Positions 14,873 through 28,055 of a stretch of 33,927 bases of DNA are shown one piece after another. Position numbers and translations under genes: made by a program. Position 1 is the first letter of the stretch. Each line of letters opens with the position of its first letter. Source of the stretch: a virus. The stretch covers positions 1 to 33,927 of the IMG/VR virus record IMGVR_UViG_3300020442_001779; one strand, written 5' to 3'. A model generated the notes under the pieces. It was given only the letters and a program-made list of their open reading frames with translations. It made no database searches and was not told the origin of the DNA.

Positions 14873-16276
14873 TCACATGAGGTTCTGAACTTTGACTCTT
14901 CTGTAGTAACGGTTTGCGTTAACAGTAAGTGCGCCGAGACCAGCGGTTGTGCCTTCAGCGAAGGGGTTAGCAACAAGACCGTAACGAGTCTTAAAGCCAA
15001 TCTTGGGCTGGAAGGTGTTCTCTCCAACGGCACGAACCATCTGGAGGGGAACATAGGGGCAGTAGAAGAGACCTGCGTCATAGGGGGAAGAACCCTTATA
15101 ACCAACAACGTAGTACTGGTTAGCAGCAACGTTTGCAGCATAAGGATCGATGTAGACGCGGAACTTGCCGAGGAGTACACCAGCAAAGGTGTTACCAGTG
15201 TCATCTACATTGAGGTTTGCATTTAGTGCAGGGGTGTAATCAAGTACACCAGCCATGCTTAGTGCGGAAGCAACGTCTGCGGAGCAGAGAATTACGTTGC
15301 CCTTCCCTCTACGAGTTCTTTGTGCGATTGCGTTAGCATCACGCTCGATTTGGAAGAGTAGTCCCTTGAACTTCTCAACAGACCAGCGACCGTTGGAGTC
15401 AACGTCAAGGTCGAATGCACCAGCGGTAGCAACGTTGGTTGCTGCGCCTTGCTCAGCGGTCTTGTAGATGGTTCTGATGACTTCACGGTTGATCTCTGCA
15501 AGAATCTCAGAGGAGAGAATGTTTGCGAGTTCCGCTTCAGCATTTAGACCATGGATCGCCTTGAGGTCTTGTGCTAGTTCTAAGGAGTACTCAGCCTTGA
15601 GTGCTCTGGACTTTGCTTCGACGAGGACTTTCTCGATGGAGAATGCCATCTCGTTGAAGTGATTACCTGCGCCGTCGCCTAGTGCTTCAGCAGAGGTGGT
15701 CTTCATTCCCTGACCAACGTTATATGCGCTCTGGTCGCCGCTGGTGGGGTTGAGGATGCTGGGGTTGTCGCCGCTTTGTGCGGTAGTACCCATACCAACT
15801 GCAGTACCAGTGAAGTCGGTTAGGGTGCGACCATCATTCTGACCAGACCATGCAGAATCTGCTTCGTCGTAGAATGCTTCGGTTCCGTCGTTAGCACCGT
15901 AACGGGAACGCATTGCGAAGATAAGTCCAGTAGGACCAGACATTGGTTGAACGCCTGCGAGATCATATGCGATCAAGTTAGGCATTGCACGTCTGATTAA
16001 AGAAATCAGAACGGGGTCGAAACCTGCAACAGGGCCACCAGCGTCAGCACCTGCGCTGAAACCTGCAGAACCGTTACCGGTTGCAGTGTTCATGGTGGGA
16101 GAAGCTTCGTTTAGCATTCCGCCTTGGGAGAATGCGTTTTGCTCTCTTAGGAATTTTTCTTGGTTTTCTAGCAGGACAGCAGTTACGGCTTTACGATGGG
16201 AATCTTTGATTTCCTCGCATCCTTCAGCGTTTAGAAGGGGTGCCCACTTTTCCTGCAGATGCTCAGATTGGAACAT
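14873..16276 (-). CDS. 23: Major capsid protein gp23
   Basis: A 467-residue HK97-fold shell protein. Seen: N-terminal MFQSEHLQEKWAPLLNAEGC, the usual opening of marine T4-like gp23, then RSRYGAND, NEMAFSIEKVLVEAKSRALKAEYS, LAQDLKAIHGLNAEAELANI and the YYVVGYKGSSPYDAGLFYCPYVPL to FQPKIGFKTRYGLVANPF end. The prohead protease site is visible as MLNE|A after residue 57, matching the (I/L)xE rule, so the mature chain would start at Ala58. A good ribosome site (AGAGGT) precedes the start. GC content and codon use look richer than in the AT-rich neighbours, consistent with very high expression. It lacks its own late core and is probably read from the gp22 promoter. Confidence 0.97.
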   Translation of the reverse strand: MFQSEHLQEKWAPLLNAEGCEEIKDSHRKAVTAVLLENQEKFLREQNAFSQGGMLNEASPTMNTATGNGSAGFSAGADAGGPVAGFDPVLISLIRRAMPNLIAYDLAGVQPMSGPTGLIFAMRSRYGANDGTEAFYDEADSAWSGQNDGRTLTDFTGTAVGMGTTAQSGDNPSILNPTSGDQSAYNVGQGMKTTSAEALGDGAGNHFNEMAFSIEKVLVEAKSRALKAEYSLELAQDLKAIHGLNAEAELANILSSEILAEINREVIRTIYKTAEQGAATNVATAGAFDLDVDSNGRWSVEKFKGLLFQIERDANAIAQRTRRGKGNVILCSADVASALSMAGVLDYTPALNANLNVDDTGNTFAGVLLGKFRVYIDPYAANVAANQYYVVGYKGSSPYDAGLFYCPYVPLQMVRAVGENTFQPKIGFKTRYGLVANPFAEGTTAGLGALTVNANRYYRRVKVQNLM

Positions 16277-16328: not shown

Positions 16329-17489
16329 TCACTTTTTGTTGACAACGGATGAAAGAGTTCTCAGATAAGCAGCCATTGAATCTGTATAAGGTTCAGGGGT
16401 TACTTCTGCTCCTTCAGAGAGTGTTTCGGTGGTTGTCTGTGGAGCAACTTTTTTAGCAAAATATGCTTCTTTTAGTGTCTCCAGTTTCTCACGATAAGAT
16501 GTCTCACTTTCAAACTCAACACTTTCGGAAAGTGAAGCGAGCTTTTCCTTCTGAGTAGCAGCGAGGCCTTCAGAGATCTCATCGAAAATTCTATCTGCAA
16601 CCGACTCGGAGAGACGCTTGTTTAGAGAAATGTTCTTATCGATTTGCTCGTTGAGTTTTGTCTCCATTTCATCAAGTTTTTCTACCATGCTCTCAAGCAC
16701 ATCATATTTATCTTCAGGGATTGATACATAATGTTCTTCAAAAAGATTCTTGAGACCAGACATAAAGGAATTATTTAGTTCTTCTTTAAGTCCTGCCTCA
16801 ACGGATAGTCTGTTCTCAGACATCCACTCACTAGATACATACTCAAGATAAGAATCAACACGCTCAGTTAGAGCAGTCTTGATTTCTTCTACTTCTTCTA
16901 CTAGTTTAGTTTCGTACTGAGTTTCAAGTGCTTCTTGAATCTCAGAAACCTTGGAACGGAGCGCAGATTCAAAGATAGTTCTTGCTTTCTCTTGGAATTC
17001 CTCAGAAAGTTCTTCACCTTGTAGAAGAGCATTTACATCTTCTTCTACATTGTACTCTTCTTCGGTTTCCTCTTCTTCAGCAACAACTTCTTCCTCTACA
17101 GTTTCTTCCTCTGCAACTACTTCCTCTTCAGTGGTCTCTTCTTCGGAAACGACTTCCTCTTCGGTAGTTTCTTCCTCAGCGACTACTTCTTCAGATTCGA
17201 CTTCGGTTTCTTCCTTCTTGACTGATGCCATTGCTTCAGCGGGTTTTGCACCCTTCTTAACAACATCAGAAACAGTCTTTAGGGAAGGCTCCTTTAACTT
17301 TGCAGAATCATCATCTACTTTATAGTTATCGGGAGTAGGACCACCGAGATCTTCATAATTTCCTGTTTGACCAGGAGTTACGCTTGCTACTGAGTCCATA
17401 GATTCTCCAGATTTAGCACCAGAATTTACTGCAGTTTGGGATTGCTTAGTGCCTGCTTCCATTTCCTGTAAGTCTTTACCACTAGACAT
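16329..17489 (-). CDS. 22: Prohead core scaffold protein gp22
   Basis: A 386-residue acidic scaffold that fills the prohead and is degraded by gp21. Seen: N-terminal unfolded Ser/Gly/Asp-rich region, four tandem 11-residue Glu/Val repeats (residues 100-143), then a long charged coiled-coil part (LEEVEEIK-type heptads, residues 150-350). It ends TPEPYTDSMAAYLRTLSSVV, a C-terminus typical of T4-like gp22, where it contacts the shell. It is longer than T4 gp22 (269 residues) because of the N-terminal repeats. Several LxE sites suited to gp21 are present. It lies between gp21 and gp23 as in T4 and has a perfect late promoter upstream and a GGAG ribosome site. Confidence 0.9.
   Translation of the reverse strand: MSSGKDLQEMEAGTKQSQTAVNSGAKSGESMDSVASVTPGQTGNYEDLGGPTPDNYKVDDDSAKLKEPSLKTVSDVVKKGAKPAEAMASVKKEETEVESEEVVAEEETTEEEVVSEEETTEEEVVAEEETVEEEVVAEEEETEEEYNVEEDVNALLQGEELSEEFQEKARTIFESALRSKVSEIQEALETQYETKLVEEVEEIKTALTERVDSYLEYVSSEWMSENRLSVEAGLKEELNNSFMSGLKNLFEEHYVSIPEDKYDVLESMVEKLDEMETKLNEQIDKNISLNKRLSESVADRIFDEISEGLAATQKEKLASLSESVEFESETSYREKLETLKEAYFAKKVAPQTTTETLSEGAEVTPEPYTDSMAAYLRTLSSVVNKK
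17061..17192 (-). repeat. Four 33-base tandem repeats coding EEVVAEEETTE in gp22
   Basis: Residues 100-143 of gp22 are four units of 11 residues: EEVVAEEETTE, EEVVSEEETTE, EEVVAEEETVE, EEVVAEEEETE. The DNA units differ at some third positions, so the repeat is not a recent exact duplication. Unit number probably varies among relatives. Confidence 0.85.
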
Positions 17490-17546: not shown

Positions 17547-18197
17547 TTACAGTGAATTTAAAAAGTCATTGAATAAATTTAACTTATGTTCTTCAAGTTG
17601 TTTTTGTTGAACAAGAGTATTTATTTGTCTTTTTACACCCTCTGCATATCTTTCTCTGAGAATTCCACCATCCCAGATCCACTCTTTTCCTTCCATAATT
17701 CCCTGAACAAAAGCATCAGGTGCAGATGGATCAGCGACGATATCTGCTGCAGTTGCAAGCATGAAATCTTCACCGACTTCTTTATATCCGTTCTTAGTTT
17801 CTCTTAGTGAACCAATTCCTCTAGAAGAAACTCCAAGAGTTACACCATCTTTTAATAGTGATTCTGCAATCTTACCCATAGGAGTTGACAGAATCTGTGC
17901 TTTTCCTATAAAATTATTACCATCTCTATAGAGTTCAGTAATCTTATGAGAAACTCTATCTAAATTTACAGTTGGTCCATCAGGATGACCTAACTCTCCA
18001 AGAGCACGACCCTTTGCAACATAATCTTTGCTGTATCTTTCAACCTCCCTTTCCATAATACCCATTGGGTACATACGTCCATTTCGGTTTACTTTTTCTG
18101 CTTGTAGAAAAGGGCCTTTGATGTAAAGACTTTTCTTACCGTTTTTACTTTCGGTAAGAACCTCTACCTTTTCAATCTCTTCTCTGATTAGTTTCAT
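17547..18197 (-). CDS. 21: Prohead core protein protease gp21
   Basis: A 216-residue serine protease that matures the prohead by cutting after (I/L)xE. Seen: KSLYIKGPFLQAEKVNRNGRMYP (substrate-binding N-terminus), the catalytic His in LGELGHPDGP (about residue 71) and the catalytic Ser in GVTLGVSSRGIGSL (about 126). A conserved DFMLATAADIVADPSAPDAF strand/loop follows. Length matches T4 gp21 (212). The C-terminal tail is helical. It precedes gp22 and gp23, as in T4. Its activity is relevant to the LTE sites in the 756-residue protein. Confidence 0.96.
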   Translation of the reverse strand: MKLIREEIEKVEVLTESKNGKKSLYIKGPFLQAEKVNRNGRMYPMGIMEREVERYSKDYVAKGRALGELGHPDGPTVNLDRVSHKITELYRDGNNFIGKAQILSTPMGKIAESLLKDGVTLGVSSRGIGSLRETKNGYKEVGEDFMLATAADIVADPSAPDAFVQGIMEGKEWIWDGGILRERYAEGVKRQINTLVQQKQLEEHKLNLFNDFLNSL

Positions 18198-18203
18198 GGG
18201 TTT

Positions 18204-18473
18204 TTATGCACTTATTGGATTGTTATTTTCATCATGTCTTTGGTATGTACCAACACTCACTGGATTATTATTCTCATCATGTCTCTGATAAGTAGACGGA
18301 GTTCTTGTTCCAGTTCCAGCAGGACTGTTATAAGTACGCGCTACATAATCAGCATTAAAATCTTCATACGTTACTGTACTCCATCCTTCAGTTCCTGAAA
18401 ACTGATTGACAGTATTTTTTCCAGGTTGAGATGGTACAGGGTTGTTATTTTCGTCGTGACGAATATAAGCCAT
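18204..18473 (-). CDS. Repeat protein with three RHDENNNP(V/I) motifs
   Basis: An 89-residue protein. The motif Y-(I/Q)-R-H-D-E-N-N-N-P-(V/I) occurs at residues 3-13, 62-72 and 77-87. The middle (residues 20-60) is Gly/Thr/Ser/Asn-rich with STVTYEDFNADYVARTYNSP. No catalytic motif is seen. The three copies use different codons (CGT CAC GAC GAA against AGA CAT GAT GAG and GAA), so the peptide has been kept by selection. A perfect late promoter precedes it. It sits where T4 has gp68, between the gp67-like gene and gp21, so a prohead core or virion role is plausible, but sequence similarity to gp68 is not evident. I do not recognise the family. Confidence 0.78.
   Translation of the reverse strand: MAYIRHDENNNPVPSQPGKNTVNQFSGTEGWSTVTYEDFNADYVARTYNSPAGTGTRTPSTYQRHDENNNPVSVGTYQRHDENNNPISA
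18213..18467 (-). repeat. Three copies of an 11-residue RHDENNNP motif
   Basis: Copies lie at 18435-18467, 18258-18290 and 18213-18245. The second and third are 45 bases apart, start to start. They are identical in protein except for I/Q at position 2 and V/I at position 11, but diverged at synonymous sites. Confidence 0.85.
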
Positions 18474-23588: not shown

Positions 23589-23825
23589 CTACCAGTCGGG
23601 ATAAACATCATCGATTCTGGACATTGAATTGTATTTTTCTTTTCTATTTTTAATAACTCTTTTTATAGTACACTGTTTACACTCATAAGCATAAGACGAT
23701 GAGTTGTATTTATTTTTTCTTGTTCGATAGAATCCATTAATCAAATCCTTTACTTCTCCACAGGTTCTGCACTTTCTATCTGTTAGATATAAGTGTTCTA
23801 ATTCAAATTGATCATCTACCTCCAT
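23589..23825 (-). CDS. Small zinc-ribbon protein between gp17 and gp18
   Basis: A 78-residue protein. The ATG at 23825 shares a base with the gp17 stop (TAATG) and is preferred to a GTG at 23840. Two CxxC pairs are seen (CRTCGEVKDL, about residues 19-28, and CKQC, about 49-52), giving a four-cysteine zinc ribbon with the intervening FYRTRKNKY. The C-terminal part is basic (KRVIKNRKEK) and then acidic. This C-x2-C-G-E-x-K pattern is often seen in phage zinc fingers that accompany or derive from HNH-type endonucleases, but no HNH motif is present. It may bind DNA or the terminase; function unknown. Confidence 0.72.
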   Translation of the reverse strand: MEVDDQFELEHLYLTDRKCRTCGEVKDLINGFYRTRKNKYNSSSYAYECKQCTIKRVIKNRKEKYNSMSRIDDVYPDW

Positions 23826-25471
23826 TACATATACTCCCACATGTGTGACATATCACCATATTCATCAGTAAACCATCTGTCTCCATTCTTATCAGTAAAA
23901 GTGTTTTCATCAGTTACTCCATCAACAATAAAACCAAATGGAGACATGTCTTGTTCTACTTGATTCTTCTGCTCATCATATAATCTCTTTCTTATATCTT
24001 GATCTGTAAGTTCTTTGAAGTAATCTTCGTTAATCAACCAAGCGTATATGACAAGACACATAACTAGGTCATCATTCTTACCTTCTTCTGCTTCAAAAGA
24101 GTTTCCTTTCTGAATGAAAGTAGTCAGTTCATTTACAATATCAAAGTCTTCAAAGATCAGTTTATTATCTTCTACTAAAGTCTTAAGGTTAAAGCATCCA
24201 ACTTTTTTAGTAGTCTTGGACATTTTGAGTCCTAATTGAACTTTCTTTCCAGAAAATCCTTGACCTAGAACTTGTCCTGCCCTACCTCTCATTGCACACA
24301 TCAATAGATTGGCATACTCTAGATCGTAAAACAATCCTGCAGCAACTTGATCTCCAATATCATTTACCTCACACAAGATGTAGGCATTATTATATGAAGT
24401 TGCAATCTCCTTAATAATTTGAGGGAAGAATATAGGTCTTAATTGATTATTTCTGTACTTACCAACTATCTTATGTGGATACTGTGAAACATCAACTACA
24501 ATAAATGCAGAGTAATCTTTTTCAATTCCTCTAGCAACGTCTACTGTAATTACATAAGTATGATCCTTCTGAGGTTCTTCGTATAGATCAAATCCAGCAT
24601 TGGATGTCTTTGGATTAGTAAATGTTAGTGCATTTAATTTAGGACCTGAGATCAGAGTATCAGCAGAACCTAAGAACTGACATTCAAACTCCTGTCTCCA
24701 TTGTGCTTCAGAAGTGTTTGAAATGGTTGTCTTTTTAAACTCTTCATCTCTACCAGGAATATCTGTCCAGTGAACTTCCAATGGAACATACTCGTTCTTC
24801 TGTTTCTGGGCATCACTCCACAATCTGTAGAAGTGATTCATTCCAAATGGAGTTGAAACTACAATAACCTTTGAGGATTTACCTGAGGTAATCGTAGGAT
24901 AAACTGAACTGAAGAAGTTATCTGCAACTTGGTTTGGAACGAACGCAAACTCATCCAGGAAAATAATATTATAAGTACCACCACGAACAGATGATGCTGA
25001 GGTAGATGCAGCAAATATCTTAGATCCATTCTCTAATTCAAGAGATCCTTTATTCCAAGATAAGATGCCCTGTTGTAACCATTTGGGTAAGTTTTCATAC
25101 CCAGTTTGTAATCTATTGAGTAGATCTCTTGCAGTATTTGCTTTGTTTGCTAGGATGGCAATATTAACATTGTCATTGAATATTGCATAGTGTAGTAAGT
25201 ATGAAACGACAGTAGTTGATTTACCAGACTGTCGAGGTAACTTACAGATATTGAATCTATTACCATGAAAACTCTCGATCATTTCCTGTTGGAAAGGATA
25301 CATCTTGAATGGTTGTAATCCATGATCAAGAGTTACGATTTTAATGTACTTAGTAAAGTATACTGGATCTTCAGCACACTTTGCAAACTCTAAAATTTGT
25401 TCTTGCGTAAATTCAATTTTGGTATTCGCTTTCTTTAGAAGCGGATTACCAAGATAATATTCTTCACTCAT
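23825..25471 (-). CDS. 17: Terminase large subunit gp17
   Basis: A 548-residue DNA-packaging motor with ATPase and nuclease domains. Seen: adenine-binding region PFKMYPFQQEMIE, Walker A LPRQSGKST (78-86), Walker B IIFLDEFAF (169-177), coupling motif VVSTPFG (204-210) and nuclease domain starting ITVDVARGIEKDYSAF (Asp311). Later acidic residues are found in CEVNDIGDQV and the GKNDDLVMCLVIYAW end motif. Length is like T4 gp17 (610) or slightly shorter. The small subunit gp16, which precedes gp17 in T4, is not seen next to it; instead a small beta protein lies 6 bases upstream. No intron or intein is present. Confidence 0.97.
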   Translation of the reverse strand: MSEEYYLGNPLLKKANTKIEFTQEQILEFAKCAEDPVYFTKYIKIVTLDHGLQPFKMYPFQQEMIESFHGNRFNICKLPRQSGKSTTVVSYLLHYAIFNDNVNIAILANKANTARDLLNRLQTGYENLPKWLQQGILSWNKGSLELENGSKIFAASTSASSVRGGTYNIIFLDEFAFVPNQVADNFFSSVYPTITSGKSSKVIVVSTPFGMNHFYRLWSDAQKQKNEYVPLEVHWTDIPGRDEEFKKTTISNTSEAQWRQEFECQFLGSADTLISGPKLNALTFTNPKTSNAGFDLYEEPQKDHTYVITVDVARGIEKDYSAFIVVDVSQYPHKIVGKYRNNQLRPIFFPQIIKEIATSYNNAYILCEVNDIGDQVAAGLFYDLEYANLLMCAMRGRAGQVLGQGFSGKKVQLGLKMSKTTKKVGCFNLKTLVEDNKLIFEDFDIVNELTTFIQKGNSFEAEEGKNDDLVMCLVIYAWLINEDYFKELTDQDIRKRLYDEQKNQVEQDMSPFGFIVDGVTDENTFTDKNGDRWFTDEYGDMSHMWEYM

Positions 25472-25477
25472 AAATTG

Positions 25478-25753
25478 TTATCCTTGATATACCACAGATG
25501 TAGCGTATACATCAGATGCTGATGAATAAACTAAATCTGTTCTCTCCTTATGTATTATAATTGGATCTTTTCCAGCAATATGTATACTTCCAGTTGTTAC
25601 GCCAGAACCAGTTCTGACCTCAACCAAACGATCCGATGAATGACTATGTTGAATCATTACATATTGTCCACCAATACCATTTATATTGGGGACACTAGAT
25701 CCACTTCCAGCGTTTACTTGAGTGGATTCTCCTAAAAGTTTTACTACATTCAT
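25478..25753 (-). CDS. Small beta-rich virion-type protein
   Basis: A 91-residue protein starting MNVVKLLGESTQVNAGSGSS. It has alternating strand pattern with Gly/Ser/Thr turns (VMIQHSHSSDRLVEVRTGSG, GSIHIAGKDPIIIHKERTDL, VYATSVVYQ), which suggests a small beta-sandwich. Proteins with the same plan (MNVVKLLG..., then I.PGE..V.EK..tD.v) occur beside gp17 in marine T4-like phages and are probably head or neck decorations. The assignment is by memory of that pattern. It starts directly after the stop of the 756-residue gene and 6 bases before gp17. Confidence 0.72.
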   Translation of the reverse strand: MNVVKLLGESTQVNAGSGSSVPNINGIGGQYVMIQHSHSSDRLVEVRTGSGVTTGSIHIAGKDPIIIHKERTDLVYSSASDVYATSVVYQG

Positions 25754-28024
25754 TTAACACTTCCAGCGACGACGGGCTTTACAAACGGGTTTATCGGGAG
25801 TTTTACTACAATCGATGTTATGCATGTCTTGTTGCCCCTTAGAGCGGGCGCAGAAGGACTTCCTGCGCTTAGCATCCTTACTACCCTTTTTTACTTTTCC
25901 AGTTACAGCAGTTTTTAATTTGGAACCAGGATTCTCACGACGATATGCAGCAACTGCTTTCTTACTCATACCATCAGTTTTGTCACCTTTGTTGACTTTC
26001 TGCCAATCTTCATTCTGTTGATCCTCCTTAGCATTTCTGCGTTGTTGTGCTTCATAGGATTTTCTAGCAGCAACACGATCTTTAGTTGGTTTGTTTCTAC
26101 CAGTCTTTGGTGCATCAGTAGGAGGTTTAGATACTGGAGTTCCAACCTTTACTCTGACCTTTTCACGGGACGGTGGTGCCTTAGCGGGATCATCTGCACT
26201 TCTAACTTCATCTCTGAATTTCTTCATAGACTTCTTAATCTCTGGTTTTGATTTTTTTTCATACTCCAGAGATTTTCTTTCACGATCAAACGCTTTTCTA
26301 TCATCAGCACGATCTTTTCTTACTTCTTTGTCGGATCTTGTATCTCCTTTTGCTGCTCTGTTTTTTGCTCTTTTATCAGCATTCATTAATCGACTTAACT
26401 TAGCCCGTTCTCCAGGTTTGGTCATATCAATCCCATGCTTTTTTGCAATTTCGGCTCTCCTAGCATTATCTTCTCTTTTACCTTCAGTGAGTTCATACTC
26501 TTCTTTATTAAAAACAGTAAGTAGAGTTTCACTGGGTTTTAAATCAGATACTCTAAAGTAAACTACTCTACAACCAGGATAGATCTTTTGCATCTCATTA
26601 TTGACTTCCATCTTTGAAGGAAGTTTTAGTTGAGGGAAGAATACTTTACTTGTATAACTCTTACCTCTCCAGTAACTAACTACCATTAAGACATTGCCAG
26701 TCTTAGTATTCAGTCTCATTGCCTCAGTGACATTACCTTCAAGACATTGACATGGATCTTGTCCGCATACTGGACATGTTTCTAATTCTTCTTTCTTAAC
26801 ACAGTTTGGATATCTCTTACCAAACATGGTCTTCATTCCTTTTTTCTCATATCCTTTCCAACACTTTTCAGTAAGTTCAGATCTCCAATCAGAATATTCC
26901 TCACTCTTATTACCCCAGTTAGCAGCACCTTTTTTACGACACTTGACTAGTGCTCCAGATGCATATGCAGAAGGCCATACAGAATAACGGGACTTGACTT
27001 TATGGTAGCAAGCATCTTTTGTGCCACTACCTTTGCCTTTTTTATCCTTTGCTTCGGTTAATTCTACTTCCTCTTTCCTTACCTTTCTGTCTGTTTTTAC
27101 CATTGTTGGTTTTGCAGCACCAGATTTTTTCTGTTGATTAGGATCTTCTCTTCTCTTTGCAGCGGCAGCAGCACGTCTCTCTTTCTTAGTCATACTTGCT
27201 CTTTTCTCAGAAGAAACACATTTAGGAATACCTTCTCCAGGTTCATCACTGGCACAAGTTCCACCTGTGACAACATTAACCCATCCAGACTTACCATCTT
27301 TTGACTTAGATTTACCAAACCAATCACGAAGTCCTTCTTCCTTTATCAAATCTTCAACACTAATTAGATCAATAATTTCAGCAAACTTTTTACCATTTGC
27401 ATCAAGAATATCTACAGATTCACTTACACCACCATTGCTACCACCATTACCATTGGTAGTAGTTTCTCCATTACCATTAGTAGTCTTAGTTTCTTCAGAA
27501 TCTTCTTCGTCTTTTGCTAGATATCCACCACGACCAACATGCCATCCCATAGGAATTTTCTTGCACTTCTTATCTTCATAGCACCAGTAGTGACCTTTCT
27601 TGCAGTTGTGAACCTTTCCGTCAGACTTCACTTCATCAAGAATTTGATCTACTAAATTTGTTTCTCCCATCAAACTGGGACCTTTCACTTTCTTCTTTGC
27701 AATTTCTGATCCTTCATCCCCAGTTTTAGTTCTATCTCTAATTTTCTTTTCTCTTTGTGCTTTTCTATGCGCTTTGGGATCAATAGCATCAGGCATTGCA
27801 CCTTCCTCAACTTCAAACTCATTATTGAGTCTTGTTAAGGGATTATAATAAGGAGTTACATCACTCTTATATTTTGGGCCTTTATTAGTATAACCTGCTT
27901 CTCTTCTCTTCTTCTCAAACTCATGTCTATTTTTAGGACTTAACTTTCTTTTTGGAATTGGTTTACCAGTAAAACCAATTTCAGTTTCATCTTTCTTTGC
28001 TTTTTTCTTATCTTCGTTTAACAT
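25754..28024 (-). CDS. Large modular basic Cys-rich protein, possible processed polyprotein
   Basis: A 756-residue protein, very rich in Lys/Arg, built of small modules. Approximate order: N-terminal basic region (1-70); Cys/His module with KGHYWCYEDKKCKKIPMGWH (140-165); Asn/Gly linker (180-200); DWFGKSK...GWVNVVTGGTCASDE (233-280). Then DACYHKVKSRYSVWPSAYAS plus CRKKGAANW, a DUF5872-like module (337-370); CWKGYEKKGMKTMFGKRYPNC (388-408); CPVCGQDPCQC (417-427). Next come a folded segment around VLMVVSYWRGKSYTSKVFFP (445-505), Lys/Arg-rich helices (515-650), and a last Cys module with AAYRRENPGSKLKTAV (680-756). Modules are flanked by LTE sites (E324, E386, E514) that fit the gp21 consensus. 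No enzyme motif is seen. A late-type promoter precedes it. A packaged internal protein is a hypothesis. Confidence 0.75.
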   Translation of the reverse strand: MLNEDKKKAKKDETEIGFTGKPIPKRKLSPKNRHEFEKKRREAGYTNKGPKYKSDVTPYYNPLTRLNNEFEVEEGAMPDAIDPKAHRKAQREKKIRDRTKTGDEGSEIAKKKVKGPSLMGETNLVDQILDEVKSDGKVHNCKKGHYWCYEDKKCKKIPMGWHVGRGGYLAKDEEDSEETKTTNGNGETTTNGNGGSNGGVSESVDILDANGKKFAEIIDLISVEDLIKEEGLRDWFGKSKSKDGKSGWVNVVTGGTCASDEPGEGIPKCVSSEKRASMTKKERRAAAAAKRREDPNQQKKSGAAKPTMVKTDRKVRKEEVELTEAKDKKGKGSGTKDACYHKVKSRYSVWPSAYASGALVKCRKKGAANWGNKSEEYSDWRSELTEKCWKGYEKKGMKTMFGKRYPNCVKKEELETCPVCGQDPCQCLEGNVTEAMRLNTKTGNVLMVVSYWRGKSYTSKVFFPQLKLPSKMEVNNEMQKIYPGCRVVYFRVSDLKPSETLLTVFNKEEYELTEGKREDNARRAEIAKKHGIDMTKPGERAKLSRLMNADKRAKNRAAKGDTRSDKEVRKDRADDRKAFDRERKSLEYEKKSKPEIKKSMKKFRDEVRSADDPAKAPPSREKVRVKVGTPVSKPPTDAPKTGRNKPTKDRVAARKSYEAQQRRNAKEDQQNEDWQKVNKGDKTDGMSKKAVAAYRRENPGSKLKTAVTGKVKKGSKDAKRRKSFCARSKGQQDMHNIDCSKTPDKPVCKARRRWKC

Positions 28025-28047: not shown

Positions 28048-28055
28048 TATTTATC
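28048..28055 (-). promoter_or_regulatory. Putative late promoter (GATAAATA) before the modular protein
   Basis: GATAAATA on the minus strand, overlapping the glycosyltransferase stop, 23 bases before the 756-residue gene. It matches the late core at 7 of 8 bases and may serve gp17 as well. Confidence 0.5.

Follow-up and report, generated by a model that had tools for sequence, protein, structure and literature searches.

A shuffled-module protein of T4-like cyanophages as a candidate head cargo polyprotein of the prohead protease gp21

The internal proteins of phage T4, IPI, IPII and IPIII (with Alt), are small and basic, are made with a leader that ends in a site for the prohead protease gp21, are packed in the head and are ejected; the database record of ipII and ipIII starts MKTYQEFIAE↓A (arrows here mark the known or predicted cut). 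T4 gp21 cuts after L/I-x-E (PMC9026906). In the capsid targeting sequence of IPIII, residues 4 and 7 target while residues 8 and 10 govern processing, an Asp at position 10 being enough to block it, and targeting and processing are separable in T4 (PMC9026906); the T4 core proteins are also substrates, cut by gp21 into several fragments (PMC9026906). Two other systems bear on the protein described here. Polyvalent proteins are composed of unrelated, exchangeable modules and are thought to be injected and split, an arrangement that Iyer et al. (2017, PMC5512222) liken to a polyprotein, and a SAM hydrolase is present in the virions of S-CREM2, a T4-like cyanophage (PMC10665884). A search of a set of open-access papers found no description of a gp21-processed cargo polyprotein of the kind that we consider below.

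A basic modular protein in a T4-like head gene block

The window, by which we mean the whole stretch of DNA analysed, is a 33.9-kb virus record (33,927 nt) that carries T4-like head genes: gp23, gp22, gp21, gp17 and their neighbours. Its gene order runs from the gene of a 756-aa protein through a 91-aa ORF to gp17, after which come gp18 to gp23.

14873-16276, minus strand: gp23 major capsid protein (phrog_138), propeptide end GGMLNE↓ASPT
16329-17489, minus strand: gp22 scaffold (phrog_237)
17547-18197, minus strand: gp21 prohead protease (phrog_207), own site VEVLTE↓S near the N-terminus
23825-25471, minus strand: gp17 large terminase, by sequence and by gene order as in annotated relatives
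25754-28024, minus strand: 756-aa modular protein of the T4-GC119 / phrog_727 family, by profile match; pI 9.7
28048-28055, minus strand: putative late-promoter-like element GATAAATA, 31-24 nt upstream of the ATG

An earlier note on this DNA had described a 756-residue, strongly basic protein encoded in the head block next to gp17 and preceded by a late promoter, and this description held: the ORF occupies 25754-28024 on the minus strand; its product has a pI of 9.7, with 180 K+R against 115 D+E, and contains 18 Cys; gp17 is separated from it by the 91-aa ORF; and GATAAATA, which differs from TATAAATA by one mismatch, stands before the ATG in a window whose coding strand has 19 copies of the late-promoter-like NATAAATA and whose other strand has 0. 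The 91-aa ORF (25478-25753, minus strand; phrog_18571) starts MNVVKLLGE↓STQV, with an LxE site at residue 9. Between gp20 and gp21 lies a gene for an 89-aa protein (18204-18473, minus strand) with repeated Y-x-RHDxxNNPV motifs, whose P-HM2 relative (L260:1557-1814) adjoins the gene of the modular protein instead.

Compared with PHROGs, the 756-aa protein matched phrog_727 (E 8.9e-81), phrog_3477 and others; its only Pfam match was DUF6321, at the C-terminus (residues 681-754, E 1.4e-10), and phmmer against PDB and NCBIfam returned no match. By tblastn it hit 402 phage records, nearly all of them T4-like cyanophages, and since not one of the 402 covers 80% of it in one place, it is a mosaic. 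Mapping of 375 homologue alignments onto the protein, which we used to define module blocks, resolved six conserved blocks, Z, A, B, C, D and E, with variable stretches between them.

27506-27610, minus strand: module Z, residues 139-173, CKKGHYWCYEDKKCKKIP, conserved block
27089-27334, minus strand: module A, residues 231-312, GLRDWFGKSKSKDGKSGWVNVV...CVSS..KRAS, conserved block
26903-27019, minus strand: module B, residues 336-374, KDACYHKVKSRYSVWPSAYASGALVKCRKKGAANWGN, conserved block with a stand-alone 56-aa relative in phage CRP-902
26789-26866, minus strand: module C, residues 387-412, KCWKGYEKKGMKTMFGKRYPNCVKKE, conserved block
26516-26722, minus strand: module D, residues 435-503, conserved block, small beta-beta-alpha-beta domain by AlphaFold
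26009-26482, minus strand: Lys/Arg-rich region, residues 515-672, by charge
25757-26008, minus strand: module E, residues 673-756, containing DUF6321 and found as a free protein in podoviruses

The AlphaFold model of module D, beta-beta-alpha-beta, has a pLDDT of 77.6, and a PDB fold search with it gave no usable match (best E 0.22); a model of modules A-B-C was discarded at pLDDT 47. The piece comprising residues 515-756 has a net charge of +40 and a pI of 10.4. In the homologues the Z, A, B, C, D and E modules are found in differing orders and numbers, with extra units in the form of DUF192, DUF5661 and SAM-lyase-like domains, the last of these being absent from the 756-aa protein itself. 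Judged by its alignments, then, the protein is a mosaic of reshuffled short basic modules.

Candidate cut sites at the module borders

The complete set of (L/I)xE motifs in the 756-aa protein consists of E4, E131, E229, E324, E386 and E514. All are outside the module cores, and all except E4 are gp21-type sites situated ahead of modules.

27632-27634, minus strand: codon of E131, predicted cut QILDE↓VKSDG before module Z, 8 aa ahead of the Cys module
27338-27340, minus strand: codon of E229, predicted cut DLIKE↓EGLRDWFG before module A, 2 aa ahead of the GLRDWFG module
27053-27055, minus strand: codon of E324, predicted cut VELTE↓AKDKK before module B, from the (L/I)xE site and homologue borders
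26867-26869, minus strand: codon of E386, predicted cut SELTE↓KCWKG before module C, from the (L/I)xE site and homologue borders
26723-26725, minus strand: codon of E434, weaker predicted cut NVTE↓AMRL before module D, from homologue D borders
26483-26485, minus strand: codon of E514, predicted cut YELTE↓GKRED, from the (L/I)xE site

The earlier note had named four sites, VELTE↓A (E324), SELTE↓K (E386), YELTE↓G (E514) and NVTE↓A (E434), each of which is found at the residue given, but it had missed the border sites E131 (ILDE↓V) and E229 (LIKE↓E); and NVTE↓A, which it considered close to the rule, is present but of a V-x-E type unseen in gp21 and gp23 sites. The last border, at residue 672 (QNE↓DW), has no hydrophobic residue at P3.

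The number of (L/I)xE motifs in this protein alone, 6 against 4.1 expected (P=0.21), is near chance, and we dropped it as evidence. ELTE occurs 3 times against 0.01 expected, a count reached in 0 of 5000 shuffles, and 4 of the 6 (L/I)xE sites are followed by a conserved core within 13 aa (P=0.012). Within the 756-aa protein, site repetition and position are thus evidence and site number is not; it is the sequences of the homologues that make the border-site evidence strong.

The earlier note had suggested comparing homologues to see whether sites persist at the borders as the modules change. We listed the sequence preceding every module in about 165 homologues (163 module-containing proteins from viral contigs), counting only distinct linkers, less than 50% identical, and taking residue shuffles and random positions in the same proteins as controls. 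For each common module type, 65-100% of the preceding linkers, which are otherwise unrelated, end in hydrophobic-x-E, against 22-46% when shuffled; at random positions in these proteins the figure is 16-29%. The motif is found in all 21 distinct linkers at module D borders (100%; P3 mostly V/I/M), in 98% at module C (n=49; shuffled 42-44%), in 89-94% at module B (shuffled 43-46%), in 8 of 9 at module Z (89%), in 81% at module E (n=52) and in 65% at module A (n=55; shuffled 22%). P1 is Glu; at C borders P3 is usually L or I, and at the other borders it is L, I, V, M or F. The C borders illustrate how little else is shared: SELLGE↓KCWPGY, AFME↓KCWKGY, FQQFSE↓KCWKGY, GEVIDE↓KCWDGY, SELTE↓KCWKGY. 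The sites are therefore kept at borders while both modules and linkers change. V-, M- and F-x-E are frequent at A, B and D borders, whereas gp21 and gp23 sites use L/I, and many relatives have a conserved LNE (GGLNEKG) within module E, at a non-border position.

The motif can be compared with presumptive protease substrates of the same lineage. The gp21 protein has its own I/L-x-E site near its N-terminus in 73 of 73 related contigs, as VEV(L/I)-x-E↓ or VELITE↓, these contigs having been selected by similarity to the window gp21 and so not being independent; and the six gp23 propeptide ends that we examined read LNE↓A, LTE↓A, LSE↓A and LME↓A/S. The T4 cleavage rule on which the earlier note relied is accordingly matched by gp21 and gp23 of this lineage, which carry the same motif as VEV(L/I)TE↓ and L-x-E↓.

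Some modules also exist on their own. Free module E, of 83-86 aa, is encoded by the Autographiviridae phages P-SCSP1o, where its gene comes after the major capsid gene, and KBS-P-1A, and by two small pelagiphages, in which it starts MAKTP(A/L)WQRKAGK, at the border marked xE↓(G/V)AAW(T/Q) in myoviruses. None of these four proteins contains hydrophobic-x-E, the internal LNE being replaced by LNA or LTA. Roseobacter phage CRP-902 has module B alone, as a 56-aa protein (L262:1977-2147) that likewise lacks hydrophobic-x-E, and P-HM2_112 starts M↓ATRIPT, the residues directly after the module D border, with Ala at P1'. The small phages with free modules belong to families that are not known to encode a T4-type gp21. 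The natural N-termini of the free modules offer independent support that the predicted borders are real, and these free relatives suggest that a module can do without the border Glu. The CRP-902 protein also gave a weak Pfam match to DUF5872 (E 0.0018), below the cut-off.

Capsid targeting sequences and presence in virions

The N-terminus of the 756-aa protein, MLNEDKKK, does not show the pattern of a capsid targeting sequence, with aromatic residues at 4 and 7, a hydrophobic residue at 8 and Glu at 10. Such sequences are found around the family and, in some relatives, within it. A neighbour family of proteins of ~105 aa starts MK(S/T/N)(F/Y)xxF(I/L/M)(S/T)E↓S, matching all four T4 positions; in several phages its gene is the next one downstream of the family gene, or is close to it. 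By hhalign this leader protein is homologous to module D (94.7%, E 6e-8), so that one fold is preceded by a leader in the ~105-aa protein and by a border site in the chain. In S-SZBM1, gp084 consists of MKTFKQYITE↓A followed by module E, and gp082 (L243:3254-5377) has an internal ITYREFIAE↓G ahead of a SAM-lyase-like domain; the S-H34 chain has an internal KTFQDFIEE↓KDACYHK ahead of module B. The strict pattern K(T/S/N)(F/Y/W)xx(F/Y/W)(L/I/V/M)xE occurs inside chains 4 times in the contig set, against 0.1 expected. A loose internal pattern was set aside, as it showed no enrichment (7 against 5 by shuffle). The S-PRM1 protein (L264:4554-5180) that adjoins the gene of the modular protein has a MKTYNQFVLE↓A leader, is Gly/Arg-rich and has no family matches.

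The SAM-lyase-like domain occurs in both settings. P-SSM2_114 (L247:4995-5504) has it after an N-terminal MRTFQEFLQLCE↓G, while in P-SSM4, S-SSM5 and P-SSM7 it is internal, behind the same kind of site. Five relatives score 27-33 bits against PF23780 (SAM lyase), three passing its 28-bit gathering score and two falling just below it. Association of this domain with a targeting or cut site suggests an injected anti-restriction enzyme.

Presence of the family in virions is supported by public annotation. Mass spectrometry of S-SCSM1 virions identified 45 proteins (PMC9602691). In the S-SCSM1 genome 48 genes, by our count, are labelled 'virion protein', against the 45 reported; the label covers NMNAT (ORF91), ORF213 and the carboxypeptidase named in the paper and is absent from both terminase subunits, so that it tracks detection closely, though not exactly. 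On absence from virions, which the earlier note had raised as a test, the S-SCSM1 homologue SSCSM1_29 bears the label, and S-SZBM1 gp082, as identified by length and order, is missing from the 30 proteins listed for the virions of its phage. The targeting-sequence protein S-SCSM1_30 is not labelled. The records of S-SSM5, P-SSM4 and P-HM2 attach 'similar to Synechococcus phage S-SM1 protein' to T4-GC119, gp13-15, 18-21 and 23, and not to gp16, gp17 or the replication genes, from which we infer that this remark marks the S-SM1 virion set. The S-P4 record names a relative structural protein. S-SZBM1 gp081 (87 aa, L243:2989-3252), encoded just upstream of gp082, corresponds by length and order to the abundant virion protein S-SZBM1_195.

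A cargo polyprotein, its alternatives and known systems

The best explanation for the 756-aa protein, and in our judgement a probable one, is that it is a head cargo polyprotein processed by gp21. The earlier note had proposed as much, and its reading gains support from the border sites in homologues, the gp21/gp23 motif and the virion label; the capsid targeting sequences, in the chain and on stand-alone relatives, and the N-termini of the free modules are new support for it. Module shuffling, the border motif, its counterpart in gp21 and gp23, the targeting sequences of some relatives and the free modules can all be read directly in the sequences.

The protein would be made late in infection, and short sequences that correspond to the capsid targeting sequences of T4 would bring the chain into the core of the prohead. 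After shell assembly gp21 would cut it after hydrophobic-x-Glu, at E131, E229, E324, E386, E514 and perhaps E434, to yield several small, mostly basic, Cys-containing proteins that would share the head with the packed DNA and would probably be ejected into the host cell, where the modules may act in DNA binding or counter-defence. Because each module would carry its own cut signal, modules could be swapped freely between phages, and a single gene could supply the head with many kinds of small protein for delivery into the next host cell.

Of the other readings, the one that fares best, though we think it unlikely, is targeting without cutting: hydrophobic-x-E linkers would only hold the chain in place within the prohead core, leaving the protein whole, as a multi-domain internal protein. 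The linkers do resemble capsid targeting sequences and the two functions are separable in T4 (PMC9026906), but T4 processing needs residues 8 and 10 and is blocked by Asp at 10 (PMC9026906), and P1 Glu with a hydrophobic P3 is present at nearly all borders, even those lacking the upstream targeting residues. It is slightly less likely again that the protein is a core or scaffold component like T4 gp67 and gp68, most of whose gp21-cut pieces would leave before DNA packaging. A basic protein encoded in a head gene block would suit such a role, as would the several fragments into which gp21 cuts T4 core proteins (PMC9026906); relatives, however, are labelled virion proteins, and their module content (DUF192, DUF5661, SAM-lyase-like) varies widely, unlike that of a scaffold. 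We rejected as very improbable the idea that the acidic hydrophobic-x-E stretches are simply flexible spacers or shared recombination points, with no protease involved. This would be in keeping with the shuffling of modules and with description of the gene's region as a mobile cassette, but the linkers are dissimilar except at P3 and P1 where DNA recombination would leave longer shared sequence, shuffles do not reproduce the motif, and free relatives outside the T4-like group are without it. Least credible is an external structural protein (tail, fibre or decoration) with modules that bind something outside the virion, since, despite records that name relatives structural proteins and fibre genes among the neighbours, the same modules carry T4-type targeting sequences, and these, like the gp21-type sites, indicate a place within the head.

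The 756-aa protein is matched by more than 400 phage records, and all the protein-family models that it matched are of unknown function. If the cargo polyprotein reading is true, infection by these phages starts with the delivery of sets of small proteins, the mature peptides to make can be read off exactly from the borders, and cargo peptides are under-reported by proteome searches built on whole tryptic proteins. The internal repeated capsid targeting sequences would provide a natural example, useful for loading several proteins per phage head.

The nearest known systems each share part of this arrangement. The units are small and mostly basic, like the T4 internal proteins, and the sequence likeness noted is in the leader: cyanophage stand-alone relatives have the same kind of leader as MKTYQEFIAE↓A, whereas the chain holds several cargo units, with a site before each. 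Like polyvalent proteins, it has at least two unrelated exchangeable domains (Z, A, B, C, D and E, shuffled); those proteins are, however, reported to be freed by embedded peptidase domains and to be scarce in cyanobacteria (PMC5512222), while the proposed splitter here is a separate prohead protease and the units are mostly of 30-85 aa. As a Pfam search found no peptidase domain in the 756-aa protein or in 65 homologues, it is not, on its sequence, a polyvalent protein in the published sense. T4 gp22 and gp67 are also cut several times by gp21 in the prohead, some small fragments staying in the virion, but unlike these scaffold proteins the cyanophage family has exchangeable modules, some of them free-standing or enzyme-like. 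The inner body or ejection proteins of phiKZ-like phages are likewise internal to the head, and a gp21-like protease cuts them after the Glu of a short motif, but they are described as losing propeptides rather than as strings of several products. The virion SAM hydrolase of S-CREM2 resembles the SAM-lyase-like cargo found behind an internal targeting sequence in relatives of the 756-aa protein, though its gene is separate. We consider it somewhat likely that the one-leader, one-cargo internal protein of T4 became, in the T4-like cyanophages, a swappable polyprotein whose effectors, which in relatives include a likely anti-restriction SAM lyase, each carry a targeting or cut signal and are released by the capsid protease, and that the same effectors stand alone as free proteins in unrelated podoviruses.
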